Shown: piece by piece, positions 43,086 through 50,209 of the stretch
Layout of the letters: the number at the start of each line of letters is the position of its first letter
Position numbering within the stretch: the stretch's first letter is position 1
Source of the DNA: Halobiforma nitratireducens JCM 10879
GTDB taxonomy: Archaea > Halobacteriota > Halobacteria > Halobacteriales > Natrialbaceae
Length of the DNA: 50,209 nucleotides
Reading direction: 5' to 3'
NCBI RefSeq assembly: GCF_000337895.1
Contig: NZ_AOMA01000125.1
Span: forward strand, 1-50,209
Program-made: the position numbers and the translations under genes
Notes under the pieces: generated by a model
Told to the model about the DNA's origin: nothing
What the model saw: only the letters and a program-made list of their open reading frames with translations
The model's database searches: none

Positions 43086-44468
43086 ATGAACGTCTCTATC
43101 GTCGGCAGCGGCTACGTCGGAACCACCGTCGCCGCCTGTCTCGCGGAGCTGGGCCACGATGTCGTCAACGTCGAGATCGACGAGGATATCGTCGCGACGA
43201 TCAACGCGGGCGACGCGCCGATCCACGAGTCCGGCCTCGAGCAGCGTATCGCCGAACACGCGGGCGACTCGCTGCGCGCGACCACGGAGTACGCCGATGT
43301 CCGCGAGACCGACGTTACGCTGCTCTGTCTCCCGACCCCACAGAGCGACGACGGCAGTCTCGACCTCGCGCCGATGCGGGCCGGGACGGAGATGCTCGGC
43401 GAGGCCCTCGCCGAGAAGGACGACGAGCACCTCGTGGTCGTCAAGAGCACGGTCCTGCCAGGGACCACCGAAGAGGTCGTCGCGCCGATCCTCGCCGAAC
43501 AGTCCGGCACCCCCATCGGCGAGGGGATCGACGTCGCGATGAACCCCGAGTTTCTCCGGATGGGGACCGCCGTCGGCGACTTCCTCGAGCCGGACAAGGT
43601 CGTGCTCGGGACCCGAACCGACGCCGCAGCGGCCACGCTCCGGAACCTCTACGCACCCATTCTCGAGACCGACGGCACTGCTCTCGTCGAGACCGACGTT
43701 CGCGAGGCGGAACTCATCAAGTACGCGAACAACGCCTTCCTCGCGTCGAAAGTTTCCCTCGTGAACGAACTCGGTAACATCGCTAAGGAGTACGGTGCAG
43801 ACGCCTACGAGGTGCTCGAGGCCGTTGGGCTCGACGATCGCATCTCGGAACGGTTCATGCGCTCGGGCCTGGGCTGGGGCGGTTCCTGCTTCCCGAAAGA
43901 CGTCGCCGCGATCCGGGCCGGCGCGCGCGAACAGGGGTACGAACCCGAACTGCTGGACGCCGTCGTCGCGGTCAACGACGAGCAACCGCGGCGGCTCGTC
44001 TCCCTGCTTGCCGACCACGTCGACCTCGAGGGTGCTCGGATCGCGGTGCTTGGCCTCTCGTTCAAACCCGGGACCGACGACATTCGGAAATCACGTGCAC
44101 TGGATACGATCGAGTCCCTCCGCGAGCGGGGCGCGACGGTCGCTGCGTACGATCCGGTCGCGGTCGATAACGTGCGGGAGTATTACGCCGGCGGCGACGA
44201 GTCCGTCCTGGTTGACCTCGAGTTCGCCGATACTGCCGCGAGCGCGCTCGAGGACGCCGACGGCGCGGTCGTCGCGACGGACTGGCCGGAGTTCGACGAC
44301 CTCGAGGCCGAGTTCGAGGGGATGGCCCGCACGGTCGTCGTCGACGGACGGCGGATCGACGTCGACGAGGACGCGCTCGAGGGGATGGCCCGCACGGTCG
44401 TCGTCGACGGACGGCGGATCGACGTCGACGAGGACGCGCTCGAGGTGTACGAGGGATTGACGTGGTAA
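43086..44468 (+). CDS. aglM: UDP-glucose 6-dehydrogenase with a duplicated C-terminal segment
   Basis: Oxidises UDP-glucose twice with NAD to UDP-glucuronic acid, the precursor of hexuronic acids in the glycan. 460 residues. Rossmann motif GSGYVGTTVAACLAELGHDVVNVEID starts at residue 7. Other signatures are CLPTPQSDDGSLDL, STVLPGTTEEVV, MNPEFLRMGTAVGDFLEPD, KYANNAFLASKVS, and the catalytic cysteine in GWGGSCFPKDVAAI. The second nucleotide-like domain starts around 320 with IAVLGLSFKPGTDDIRKS. The last 50 residues contain a 21-residue segment twice in exact succession, GMARTVVVDGRRIDVDEDALE. Relatives normally have it once, so this copy is longer by 21 residues. Reading frame is kept. Confidence 0.94.
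   Translation: MNVSIVGSGYVGTTVAACLAELGHDVVNVEIDEDIVATINAGDAPIHESGLEQRIAEHAGDSLRATTEYADVRETDVTLLCLPTPQSDDGSLDLAPMRAGTEMLGEALAEKDDEHLVVVKSTVLPGTTEEVVAPILAEQSGTPIGEGIDVAMNPEFLRMGTAVGDFLEPDKVVLGTRTDAAAATLRNLYAPILETDGTALVETDVREAELIKYANNAFLASKVSLVNELGNIAKEYGADAYEVLEAVGLDDRISERFMRSGLGWGGSCFPKDVAAIRAGAREQGYEPELLDAVVAVNDEQPRRLVSLLADHVDLEGARIAVLGLSFKPGTDDIRKSRALDTIESLRERGATVAAYDPVAVDNVREYYAGGDESVLVDLEFADTAASALEDADGAVVATDWPEFDDLEAEFEGMARTVVVDGRRIDVDEDALEGMARTVVVDGRRIDVDEDALEVYEGLTW
44314..44445 (+). repeat. exact 63-bp tandem duplication inside aglM
   Basis: Two identical 63-base units, 44314-44376 and 44377-44439, with the first six bases of a third. Each encodes 21 residues beginning around the methionine at residue 413 and again at 434. 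No base differs between the copies, so the event is recent or is kept homogeneous. Confidence 0.95.
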
Positions 44469-47151: not shown

Positions 47152-49029
47152 ATGGTCGACCGGCCGTCCGTCCTGCGTGCGAACCTCACCGCCGGCGAGG
47201 TCGAGAAAGAGCGGGTGCCGGACCAGTGGCGTCGGCGCTTTCTCGGAGGCAAAGGGCTCGGCGTGCGGTATCTCTACGACGCGCTCGAGGCGGGAGTCGA
47301 TCCACTCGGGCCCGACAACCTGCTTGGCTTTTTCGTCGGACCGCTCGCGGGGGCGTTGCCGGGTGAGTCACGGTACGCCGCGGTGACGAAATCCCCGTTG
47401 ACCGGGCTCTTTCTCGACTCGTATGCCGGCGGCGCGTTCGCGTCGCGGCTCGCCGGCTCGCTCGAGGACTGCCGTGCCCTCGTGGTGACTGGAGCCAGCG
47501 ACGACCCCGTCCGAATCGTCGTCGAGGACGGAACGGCCGAGATCGAGCCAGCCGAGACGTGGGGGGCGGATACGGTCGAGACGGGGGCGGCCCACCCGGA
47601 CGCAGCCGTCGCGTGTATCGGTCCTGCAGGCGAACGCCAGGTCCGGTACGCGACGATCGCTTCCGACGCGGGGGACCACCAGGCCGGCCGTGGCGGCGCG
47701 GGGGCCGTCATGGGCTCGAAGCGGCTCAAGGCGGTCGTCGCGGCTGGGCCGCCGGCCGATCCGCCGACACCCGAACTCGCCCGCCTCCGGGAGACCTACG
47801 CCGAGCGATACGCCACCGGCGAGACCGGCAGCTGGCAGGCGACCAGCGCGACGCTCGAGTCGATCGACTTCGCCGACGCGGTCGACGCGCTCGCCACGAA
47901 CGGGTGGCGCGAGCGGACGTTCGACGGTATCGAGGACATCGGCGTCGAGGCGGCCCGCGACGCGTCCGTCGGCCGGGAATATCCCGACGAGCCGGTCCCG
48001 GGTGGCTTCCGCGTCGAGACAGACGACGGCGAGACGGTTCCTCGCGGGGCGACCCAGATGAGTCTCGGCGCTGGCCTCGGAATCGACGACTTCGATGCCG
48101 TCGCCGAACTCGGGGCCCTGTGTGATCGACTCGGGCTCGACGTCATCTCGGCCGGTAACGCGGTCGCCTGGGTCGCCCGCGCTCGCGAGGCCGGCGCGAT
48201 CGAGGCGGCCCTCGAGTTCGGCGACGGCGAGGGGGCACGCGCGCTCATCACGGCGATCGCGGACGGCGTGCAGGCACTCGAGGATGCTGCAAGCGGTGAC
48301 CTCGAGTTGCCCTGCGATCCCGCCGTCGTCGCGACGCTGCGTGACGGTGTCGACACCGCGGCCGCCCGGTTCGGCGTCGAACCGATTCCGACGGTGAAGT
48401 CGATGGCCCTGCCCGCGTACGACCCCCGTGGGGCTGCGGGGATGGCGCTTGCGTACGCGACCAGTGATCGGGGCGGCTGTCATCGCCGGGCTCGCCCCAT
48501 CGAGGAGGAGGTGTTCGCCGCCTGGGACCGCGACGAGCGGGTCACGGCAGTCAGGGTCGCACAGGACGTTCGATCCGTGCTGTGGAGTCTCGTCGCCGAC
48601 GACTTCGCCGGCGAGACGCTGTGGCACGACTGTGGCACGGAGTTTTTCGAGGCCTTGACCGACGCCGAGACCGTCGACGTCGCTTACCCGACCGATCCCG
48701 ACGCGCTCTACCGGACGGGCGAGCGAATCTGGACGCTCGTGCGGCTGTTCAACGCTCGAGAGGGGGTCGACCGACACGACGACCGGCTGCCCGAACCCCT
48801 GTTCGCTGGGGACTCGAGCGACGAGGGAGGTGTCGACGTGGACGCAGGCATCGATCCCGATGCGTTCGAGGCTCTACTCTCGGCGTACTATCGCGCCCGC
48901 GGCTGGGGCCGCGATGGACTGCCGACGGAACGGACCCTCGAGCGGCTCGATCTCGCGCCGGTTCGGGACGAGCAGACGCCCGTCGGAACGGCGTTCGCGG
49001 CGGCAAGCGAGGGCGGCGGCAAACGGTAG
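47152..49029 (+). CDS. aldehyde:ferredoxin oxidoreductase family protein lacking the cluster cysteines
   Basis: 625 residues from the ATG at 47152; the frame is open upstream to 46945, but that part is not protein-like. Family marks are FLGGKGLGVRYLYDAL, FVGPLAGALPGESRYAAVTKSP, GRGGAGAVMGSKRLKAV, DPRGAAGMALAYATSDRGGCHRR and GERIWTLVRLFNAREG. These are the two pterin-binding domains. The CxxCxxxC segment that binds three of the cluster cysteines is replaced by DASVGREYPDEPVPGG, with no cysteine for about 60 residues. The fourth, usually LGLC-like, reads SLVADDF. The protein may bind molybdopterin-tungsten without the [4Fe-4S] cluster, or may have a changed activity. Confidence 0.8.
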   Translation: MVDRPSVLRANLTAGEVEKERVPDQWRRRFLGGKGLGVRYLYDALEAGVDPLGPDNLLGFFVGPLAGALPGESRYAAVTKSPLTGLFLDSYAGGAFASRLAGSLEDCRALVVTGASDDPVRIVVEDGTAEIEPAETWGADTVETGAAHPDAAVACIGPAGERQVRYATIASDAGDHQAGRGGAGAVMGSKRLKAVVAAGPPADPPTPELARLRETYAERYATGETGSWQATSATLESIDFADAVDALATNGWRERTFDGIEDIGVEAARDASVGREYPDEPVPGGFRVETDDGETVPRGATQMSLGAGLGIDDFDAVAELGALCDRLGLDVISAGNAVAWVARAREAGAIEAALEFGDGEGARALITAIADGVQALEDAASGDLELPCDPAVVATLRDGVDTAAARFGVEPIPTVKSMALPAYDPRGAAGMALAYATSDRGGCHRRARPIEEEVFAAWDRDERVTAVRVAQDVRSVLWSLVADDFAGETLWHDCGTEFFEALTDAETVDVAYPTDPDALYRTGERIWTLVRLFNAREGVDRHDDRLPEPLFAGDSSDEGGVDVDAGIDPDAFEALLSAYYRARGWGRDGLPTERTLERLDLAPVRDEQTPVGTAFAAASEGGGKR

Positions 49030-49053: not shown

Positions 49054-49686
49054 TCACTCCCGTTCCGGCGAGCGTCGCCAGAGGGCGCGATACAGCGTCC
49101 ACATGTCGTACTCGAACGCGAGTTCGCACTCGAGTTCGAGCCCGTCCGCCAGCGCCCGCGCGTGGTCGAGGTACATCCCGTATGCGTCGATCGACGGCGG
49201 ATCGGGGTACGCACCGAGGTTCTCGGACGGACCGTACTCGCCCAGCGCCTCCCACTCACGCTCGCCGACGACGAGACGACGGTCGGGATCGCAAAAGAAC
49301 AGGAACGCGGACGCAACCGGGACGTCGACGCCCTCGAGGACCGTCAGCCGCTCGAGGGCGTCCCGCTCGGCGGCGTCGGATTCGGCGTCCCCGCCGTCGG
49401 ACACCGACTCGAGTGCCCCGGCTGCACCGACGATCGCGTCCCGAACCGCTCGGTAGTCGTTGCGCTCGAAGGCAGCCTCACGGCGTCGGCGTTCGGCGTT
49501 GGGCACGCCACCGATCGAGCGTCGGTAGTACCATCGGACGACCCACGCGGCGTCGCGCCAGCCGAACTCGCCGCGCCGAAACGCCGCCGGCAGCGTCTCG
49601 ATTTGCTCCTGCTCGACGGGGAAGAACGGCTCGTGTTCGCGGTAGTCCTCGACGGCCGACTCGACTGTCGACTGGGAGAGCGCCAT
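49054..49686 (-). CDS. haloarchaeal hypothetical protein next to the oxidoreductase
   Basis: 210 residues from the ATG at 49686, where a fresh N-terminus starts MALSQSTVESAVEDYREHEPFF. The frame continues upstream to 49923 as low-quality sequence, so this ATG is preferred. Contents are mostly helical: WRDAAWVVRWYYRRSIGGVPNAERRRREAAFERNDYRAVRDAIVGAAGAL, and LERLTVLEGVDVPVASAFLFFCDPDRRLVVGEREW, which resembles the helix-hairpin-helix region of some glycosylase-like proteins. No catalytic residues are clear. It is convergent with the oxidoreductase gene by 24 bases, so they may be regulated together only by chance. Confidence 0.65.
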   Translation of the reverse strand: MALSQSTVESAVEDYREHEPFFPVEQEQIETLPAAFRRGEFGWRDAAWVVRWYYRRSIGGVPNAERRRREAAFERNDYRAVRDAIVGAAGALESVSDGGDAESDAAERDALERLTVLEGVDVPVASAFLFFCDPDRRLVVGEREWEALGEYGPSENLGAYPDPPSIDAYGMYLDHARALADGLELECELAFEYDMWTLYRALWRRSPERE

Positions 49687-49989
49687 CGGCGGGAGTTCGG
49701 GGACGGGCGTGGTTAGCTTTTCCCCGCCTGCCCGGGTACAACCCGGTGGCGATCCTCGACGTTCCACGCGAACGGTCCGGAGGCTGTCGACTCCCGTCCC
49801 CGCCGTAGTCGCTCGAGAGTAAGTCACGTGCCAGAAAGACTCATTCGTGTGGGCGTCGATGGTGGGACCGTCGACTGACCGCGACTCGTGTTCGTGACCG
49901 CGAGTGAGGGTGAACCCGAGCACGATCGCGGCTGCCGAGGATCGACTACGAACGCGAACGCGAACACGAACGACGACGAGAGATACACC
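49687..49989. other. intergenic region with a hexamer repeat
   Basis: Between the hypothetical protein and the formate-dehydrogenase-like gene no real gene is visible. A GAACGC-type hexamer repeat (49950-49973) lies 17 bases before the next start. No clear TATA box was found. Confidence 0.5.
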
Positions 49990-50209
49990 ATGTCAAGCGA
50001 CCAGTCAGACCCGGTCAAGACGATCTGTCCGTACTGCGGCGTCGGCTGTGGCATCCAGATCACCGGCGGTGACGAGCCGTCGGACGTCCAGTTCATGCCG
50101 TGGGGCGGTGCCCCCGTCAACGAGGGACGTGTCTGCATCAAAGGCGGCGCAGCGACGGAGGTCGTCGATCACGAGGACCGACTCACCGAGCCGCTCATCC
50201 ACGAAGACG
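49990..50209 (+). CDS. formate dehydrogenase-type molybdopterin oxidoreductase, N-terminal part
   Basis: Only the first 73 residues are in the window. They read MSSDQSDPVKTICPYCGVGC then GIQITGGDEPSDVQFMPWGG and NEGRVCIKGGAATEVV. CPYCGVGC followed by RVCIKG is the N-terminal [4Fe-4S] motif (CxxCxxxC...C) of the formate-dehydrogenase/nitrate-reductase superfamily of molybdo-bis-MGD enzymes, closest in form to formate dehydrogenase alpha subunits. The enzyme would oxidise formate or a related substrate. The rest lies beyond the window edge, so the substrate class is an estimate. Confidence 0.82.
   Translation, partial: MSSDQSDPVKTICPYCGVGCGIQITGGDEPSDVQFMPWGGAPVNEGRVCIKGGAATEVVDHEDRLTEPLIHED

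Follow-up and report, generated by a model that had tools for sequence, protein, structure and literature searches.

The window analysed here, the whole stretch of 50,209 nucleotides from Halobiforma nitratireducens JCM 10879 (contig NZ_AOMA01000125.1), belongs to a haloarchaeal assembly of 205 contigs that is 85% complete. Towards its right end lie an AOR-like gene, a gene for a 210-residue protein and the start of an FDH alpha gene, in that order. These genes, and the segments of the AOR-like protein that matter below, are:

47152..49029, forward strand: AOR-like gene lacking the cluster cysteines (ATG at 47152, stop at 49029), encoding 625 residues with AFOR_N and AFOR_C domains.
47683..47730, forward strand: cofactor loop AGRGGAGAVMGSKRLK (residues 178-193), retained; R180, G182, G184, G188, K190 and K193 show little or no variation in either the cysteine-containing or the cysteine-less rows of the alignment.
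47959..48006, forward strand: former CxxCxxxC loop, now DASVGREYPDEPVPGG, residues 270-285, with the ligand cysteines kept in 0/68 cysteine-less rows.
48037..48054, forward strand: VPRGAT, residues 296-301, replacing the PEYE active-site glutamates (by alignment).
48124..48141, forward strand: kept DxxGLD motif DRLGLD, residues 325-330 (by alignment).
48478..48498, forward strand: CHRRARP, residues 443-449, with His444 and the clade-fixed Arg445 (by alignment).
48586..48606, forward strand: SLVADDF, the fourth-ligand region, where Cys494 has become Asp483 (by alignment).
49054..49686, reverse strand: uncharacterised 210-residue protein (family fam7), near the cysteine-less gene in 10/47 neighbourhoods.
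49990..50209, forward strand: start of the FDH alpha gene, which runs to contig position 52098 (L116 4888-7098; TIGR01591 711.5 bits, cut-off 666); 49990 is our chosen start codon in an ORF that opens at 49888.

The 210-residue protein gave no match in Pfam; it also recurs beside FDH alpha genes. Elsewhere in the window, a UDP-sugar dehydrogenase-like gene (43086-44468) carries a C-terminal tandem copy of about 20 residues, with GMARTVVVDGRRIDVDEDALE occurring twice (about 44328-44455, forward strand).

Pfam places AFOR_N (PF02730) at residues 7-199 of the AOR-like protein with 207 bits and AFOR_C (PF01314) at residues 217-601 with 242 bits, so that both domains of the AOR/WOR family are present at full length. 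These two were the only Pfam families detected in it; the FdhD-NarQ domain is absent, and no DNA-binding or signalling domain was found. The first-pass annotation, which had been made from the sequence alone, had called for a structure prediction, and the AF2 model (built from 61 related sequences) returned a confident AOR fold with a pLDDT of 94.7 and a pTM of 0.94. Its best structural matches (Foldseek, VIA-align 2) all belong to the AOR family, with Z scores of 36-48 and nothing else near; formaldehyde ferredoxin oxidoreductase (1B25) scored 47.5 and 1AOR 46.6, and at Z 46-48 the rmsd was 2.0-2.1 over 570-578 residues. The protein is thus predicted to share the fold of the AOR/WOR family. 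Its dN/dS (Nei-Gojobori) against three relatives is 0.17 (L007), 0.17 (L008) and 0.27 (L010); the gene is therefore not decaying but under purifying selection.

We aligned the window protein (P0001) with 1AOR and 170 distinct AFOR ORFs, giving 172 rows in which the window gene is represented twice (P0001 and L005). Cys288, Cys291, Cys295 and Cys494 of 1AOR, which we take to be the ligand positions of its [4Fe-4S] cluster, are all conserved in 104 rows and all absent from 68, and no row retains one to three of them. In the window protein Cys288/291/295 correspond to gap, gap and Gly within DASVGREYPDEPVPGG, while position 483 is Asp in 68/68 cysteine-less rows and Cys in 104/104 others. The loss of all four ligands had already been proposed from the sequence, as had the identity of SLVADDF as the fourth-ligand region, and both proposals are borne out, the latter because MVSCDF of L045 and SLVLCEF of L059 align to SLVADDF without gaps. 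A HMMER pairwise alignment to 1AOR had put Cys494 near DFAGET and was overruled by these cysteine-containing relatives. The annotation had further suggested an alignment-based search for other cysteines in the cluster site; none was found, and the observation stands. The protein therefore has neither the CxxCxxxC motif nor the fourth cysteine of the AOR/WOR [4Fe-4S] site, and the four other AFOR genes of the same genome retain their cysteines. Since the four ligands are gone, the usual [4Fe-4S] path for electrons is missing, as had been argued, but to state that electrons cannot leave goes too far as a general rule, because the DMSO reductase family includes Mo enzymes that have no Fe-S cluster at all.

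The active site has changed as well, a point that goes beyond the earlier observation, and the whole clade shares both losses. Glu311 and Glu313 of AOR (PEYE) are replaced by PRGA or PRGG, residue 298 being Arg and residue 300 Ala or Gly in 68/68 cysteine-less rows, whereas 104/104 cysteine-containing rows have Glu or Asp at both positions. Glu313 of 1AOR, to which we ascribe a catalytic role in the active site, thus has no counterpart in the cysteine-less rows. By contrast, the claim that the pterin-binding motifs are kept was upheld. The loop pattern AGRGGxGAVMGxKxLK, which in AOR presumably binds the pterin phosphates, is retained in the window protein, and its residues R180, G182, G184, G188, K190 and K193 are present in all 68 cysteine-less rows and invariant or nearly so in the cysteine-containing ones. 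D330 of the DxxGLD motif is Asp in all 172 rows, and H444, the equivalent of His448 of 1AOR and by our assumption an active-site residue, is conserved in 68/68 cysteine-less rows. Next to it, R445 and R446 are found in 68/68 and R448 in 57/68 of these rows. H176, R445 and W478 are each fixed in the clade (68/68), although the position of H176 is also His in 12/104 cysteine-containing rows.

An ordinary aldehyde oxidoreductase with its cluster ligated elsewhere would account for the AFOR domains and fold, but it is hard to reconcile with a site that offers no alternative cysteines and holds Asp at the fourth ligand in 68/68 rows. Six divergent members (L162, L163, L167, L174, L175 and L180) moreover contain long low-complexity insertions, for the most part acidic, in the former cluster loop or immediately behind it, as might be expected once the loop no longer had a cluster to bind. 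A sequencing or assembly artefact is contradicted by the presence of the cysteine-less gene in dozens of genomes, some of them complete. We regard either explanation as very improbable.

A maximum-likelihood tree of 85 rows (27 cysteine-less and 58 cysteine-containing), inferred by a quick method with the trait columns blanked, places all cysteine-less rows on one side of a single branch (SH-aLRT 100), and a single state change suffices. The nearest group comprises cysteine-containing haloarchaeal AORs (L045 from Haloferax marinum, L140, L156, L157 and L159-L161; support 99). Across our survey of the order and a search of 196 genomes of the phylum, which included members of the order, the cysteine-less clade was seen only in Halobacteriales; the best match outside the order in the latter search, judged by score, had an E value of 5.6e-81 and 39% identity. 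Within the order, 151/293 genomes carry the protein: 144 match P0001 at E <=1e-117, and seven (G021, G033, G120, G136, G142, G228 and G231) have divergent cysteine-less members that were read directly. G155, whose match at 1e-116 belongs to the cysteine-containing sister clade, G071 and G226 lie outside the carrier set. Direct reading gave the cysteine state for the 68 rows and L166; for the remaining carrier genomes it was assigned from the score.

To describe the genomic context we used 50 regions of up to 21.8 kb, namely the best 10 of at least 80 named loci from a contig scan plus 40 chosen for family spread. Removal of the duplicate L134 and of the cysteine-containing L045 and L140 left 47 cysteine-less neighbourhoods. 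Genes were called by a simple home-made script, which can miss or mis-start genes, and neighbours were named by NCBIfam or Pfam where scored and otherwise by reading of the sequences; the YqeC neighbour scored 169 bits, and the MobA-like neighbour 121 bits, under its cut-off of 152. Within eight genes of the cysteine-less gene we found FDH in 27 neighbourhoods, YqeC in 22, MobA in 16 and MoaA in four. Also recurrent among the 47 were a DUF7124 protein (16), TorD-like (11) and HdrA-like (10) proteins, the DUF7124 gene directly following the cysteine-less gene in all 16 cases. For comparison we took 20 regions around cysteine-containing AFOR genes, from the window's own genome and others of the order, in 19 of which the AFOR gene was found. 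FDH, YqeC, MobA, TorD, HdrA, DUF7124 and the 210-residue protein were near none of these 19 genes. At least one of FDH, YqeC, MobA or MoaA accompanies 36/47 cysteine-less genes against 0/19 cysteine-containing ones (Fisher 3e-9, with MoaA counted on the cysteine-less side only). The other 11/47 neighbourhoods contain none of the four; in L117 and L118, from relatives of the same genus, only the 210-residue neighbour is present. In 7/50 regions (L039, L041, L147 and others) the AOR-like/DUF7124 run is followed, at gene position +4, by a gene for a DUF7405 protein that matches Dyp-type peroxidases weakly.

The neighbouring FDH genes were of three architectures: about 700 residues; about 1000-1070 residues with a Tat leader; and about 1100 residues, mostly next to a NuoF-like gene. 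The Cys-His FDH signature was found directly in 19/30 FDH-cluster genes (L134 included), and the six inspected among the remaining 11 all have it as CTRMCHA. In L232 the order is YqeC, TorD-like, NrfD-like, FdhB-like and FDH, then, divergently, AOR-like, DUF7124 and HdrA-like; L231 is arranged much the same without YqeC. Such adjacent and divergent placement beside FDH operons would suit a structural accessory subunit of FDH complexes that holds no cofactor. Against this, occurrence with three FDH architectures is easier to explain by a maturation role that they share than by a subunit belonging to a single FDH, and the cofactor-loop residues are unchanged, so that we consider an accessory subunit improbable.

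A different arrangement is seen in L230, from genome G012, where the AOR-like gene adjoins a GcvT/DMGDH-like gene, YqeC and FDH are some 11-16 kb away, and EtfAB and FolD-like genes are present too. These C1-metabolism neighbours (DMGDH/GcvT-like, EtfAB and FolD-like) also fit a catalytic role. The protein might then catalyse a step of C1 metabolism upstream or downstream of FDH, as a Mo/W enzyme that works without an Fe-S cluster. Its reaction would be either non-redox (hydration, isomerisation, or transfer of a formyl group or of formaldehyde) or a redox reaction in which electrons are exchanged directly with a partner. It retains the active-site His and the cofactor loop, the clade-fixed R298 and R445 could bind an anionic substrate, and in some genomes its neighbours include FDH, the genes just named and Zn-dependent ADH-like genes (named by reading of the sequences); the DUF7124 gene directly next to it in 16/47 neighbourhoods could likewise be counted here. 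Yet the active-site Glu is lost, YqeC and FDH recur more strongly than any metabolic partner, and YqeC and MobA are maturation-type genes. On balance we think a C1 enzyme unlikely, if still a serious candidate.

The association with YqeC holds across the order. YqeC (TIGR03172) was detected in 189/293 genomes, 187 of them over the cut-off, and was present in 149/151 carriers of the cysteine-less protein versus 40/142 non-carriers. The two carriers without it, G000 (85% complete) and G133 (77% complete), are both incomplete assemblies; in the window's own genome, an assembly 85% complete, YqeC was not found. As a guard against common ancestry we shuffled YqeC within genera (19 mixed genera, 126 genomes, 20000 shuffles). 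There, 72/73 carriers have YqeC versus 26/53 non-carriers, and 0/20000 shuffles reached 72 (mean 58.2). FDH alpha exceeds the TIGR01591 cut-off in 203/293 genomes, and at a best E value <1e-200 FDH is present in 199/293, 137 of which are carriers. Among the 14 carriers without a strong TIGR01591 match, a Tat-type FDH-N relative scoring at least 628 bits is present in 11, whereas G015, G089 and G102 have none at that level. This brings FDH to 148/151 carriers (137 by TIGR01591 and 11 by the FDH-N type query), but the latter query covered carriers only, and the symmetric comparison of carriers with non-carriers is that by TIGR01591 alone. In the mixed genera this comparison gave a weak signal, with FDH in 62/73 carriers versus 32/53 non-carriers and 422/20000 shuffles as high. 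Sixty-two of the 199 FDH genomes (E <1e-200) lack the cysteine-less protein, 38 with YqeC and 24 without.

A protein that stores the Mo/W-pterin, times its insertion or senses it, and so regulates FDH synthesis or cofactor allocation without performing a catalytic or assembly step, would be expected to show the same pattern of retained and lost residues and the same co-occurrence with FDH and YqeC. The lack of any DNA-binding or signalling domain speaks against it, and the strong conservation beside the metal site suggests more than storage; we rate this possibility as rather improbable.

FdhD is the usual sulfurase of the FDH cofactor. With TIGR00129 it was found in 0/293 Halobacteriales genomes, while 8/14 control genomes exceeded the cut-off; with PF02634, 0/40 genomes, nearly all of them FDH-bearing, passed the cut-off (two sub-cut-off scraps), again against 8/14 controls. 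The cysteine-less protein is not a universal substitute for FdhD, because 62/199 FDH genomes do without it.

Selenium offers another context for YqeC. In bacteria YqeC has been linked to selenium-dependent Mo hydroxylases, with YqeB as the marker of the trait, in the available part of that work (Haft and Self 2008, PMC2276186), and the accessible text on a C. difficile yqeC deletion describes no clear phenotype (PMC11448449). In our set, YqeB passed its cut-off in 26/293 genomes versus 187/293 for YqeC, and G000, G112, G145 and G235 gave no YqeB match. As the trait marker is this rare, selenium is not implied, and the selenium hydroxylase trait was rejected as an explanation for most genomes. 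A large YqeC group in Halobacteriales stands outside that trait; in genus g41, many genomes carry two copies of YqeC, of which one lies near YqeB.

Near-obligate co-occurrence with YqeC, together with synteny with FDH, MobA and TorD-like genes, points to FDH biogenesis or C1 metabolism. The first-pass annotation was right that the protein is altered, while its suggestion of a hydratase- or isomerase-like enzyme found no specific support in this context. The reading we prefer, tentatively and at somewhat less than an even chance, is that of an AOR-derived, non-redox scaffold or carrier for the bis-pterin Mo/W cofactor in FDH maturation. Judged by its sequence, the cysteine-less protein, with its AOR fold, would bind a bis-pterin (Mo or W) cofactor and would probably no longer be an aldehyde oxidoreductase. 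The FDH cofactor would be held on it and there finished, for example with a sulfido ligand, or handed over, with YqeC and MobA as its partners, in archaea where no FdhD was detected. We infer the cofactor binding, the hand-over to FDH, the physical partnership with YqeC and MobA, and the step performed, which is possibly that of FdhD elsewhere. The logic proposed here would, by analogy, resemble that of NifEN, a paralog of an enzyme that took on the role of scaffold in cofactor assembly. Several observations weigh against this reading: 62/199 FDH genomes lack the protein, 11/47 neighbourhoods contain none of FDH, YqeC, MobA and MoaA, YqeC was not found in the window's own genome, the C. difficile yqeC deletion had no clear phenotype, the FDH association is weak within mixed genera, and the C1-metabolism neighbours would suit a catalyst too. 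A fuller version, in which a single conversion of an AOR in an ancestor of Halobacteriales produced a NifEN-like bis-pterin Mo/W scaffold that, with YqeC, supplies chalcogen-loaded cofactor to FDHs, seems to us plausible but doubtful.

We know of no other AFOR-fold protein without an Fe-S cluster, and the literature that we searched, in its available parts, describes neither a cysteine-less AFOR clade nor its link with YqeC and FDH. If our preferred reading is true, this would be the first such protein and a testable candidate for how haloarchaeal FDHs obtain a complete cofactor in genomes where FdhD was not detected, by a previously unrecognised maturation route that would help to explain FDH without FdhD. 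YqeC, a gene of uncertain role, gains a clear genetic context outside selenium. Where AFOR domains have led to annotation as aldehyde ferredoxin oxidoreductase, aldehyde oxidation by such proteins in haloarchaeal metabolic models is without support.

Among known systems, FdhD/NarQ, the sulfurtransferase of the FDH bis-MGD, is alike only in the proposed role of finishing the FDH cofactor, and no sequence relation was found. With the YqeB/YqeC selenium trait, as set out in the available text (PMC2276186), YqeC is shared, but in Halobacteriales it goes with FDH. L230 of G012, a genome that we infer to belong to Halodesulfurarchaeum, resembles the C1 cluster of H. formicicum; the accessible part of that report describes a working FDH in Halodesulfurarchaeum formicicum and a cluster of FDH, formate-THF ligase, MTHFR, FolD, EtfAB and GcvT (PMC5437934). 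L001 of the window's own genome is a haloarchaeal AFOR that looks related to the WOR83 (9Q1T) type of Haloferax volcanii; unlike the cysteine-less protein it keeps all four cysteines and a Glu-bearing YEFES segment, and it sits on a separate branch of the tree. The cysteine-containing haloarchaeal sister clade is closer, with about 40-43% identity and the HHAGRGG and SDRGxCHxRA-like signatures of the cysteine-less clade, but it keeps the four cysteines and PEYE. Its members L045 and L140 adjoin ABC-transporter and aldehyde-dehydrogenase-like genes, and four further sister-clade regions contained no FDH, YqeC or MobA. Class I AOR/WOR enzymes (WorL) have the IPR013983 and IPR001203 domains and one [4Fe-4S] cluster, according to the available text (PMC13328260). 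With AOR and WorL (1AOR, 1B25, 9MQX, 9G7J) the cysteine-less protein has in common the AFOR domains, the fold, the cofactor loop and the active-site His, and it differs in lacking the [4Fe-4S] cysteines and the active-site Glu and in its context of FDH and cofactor maturation. It is a member of the AFOR superfamily by descent, but because the cluster, a defining feature of the AOR/WOR enzymes, is missing, it should not be filed as one of them.
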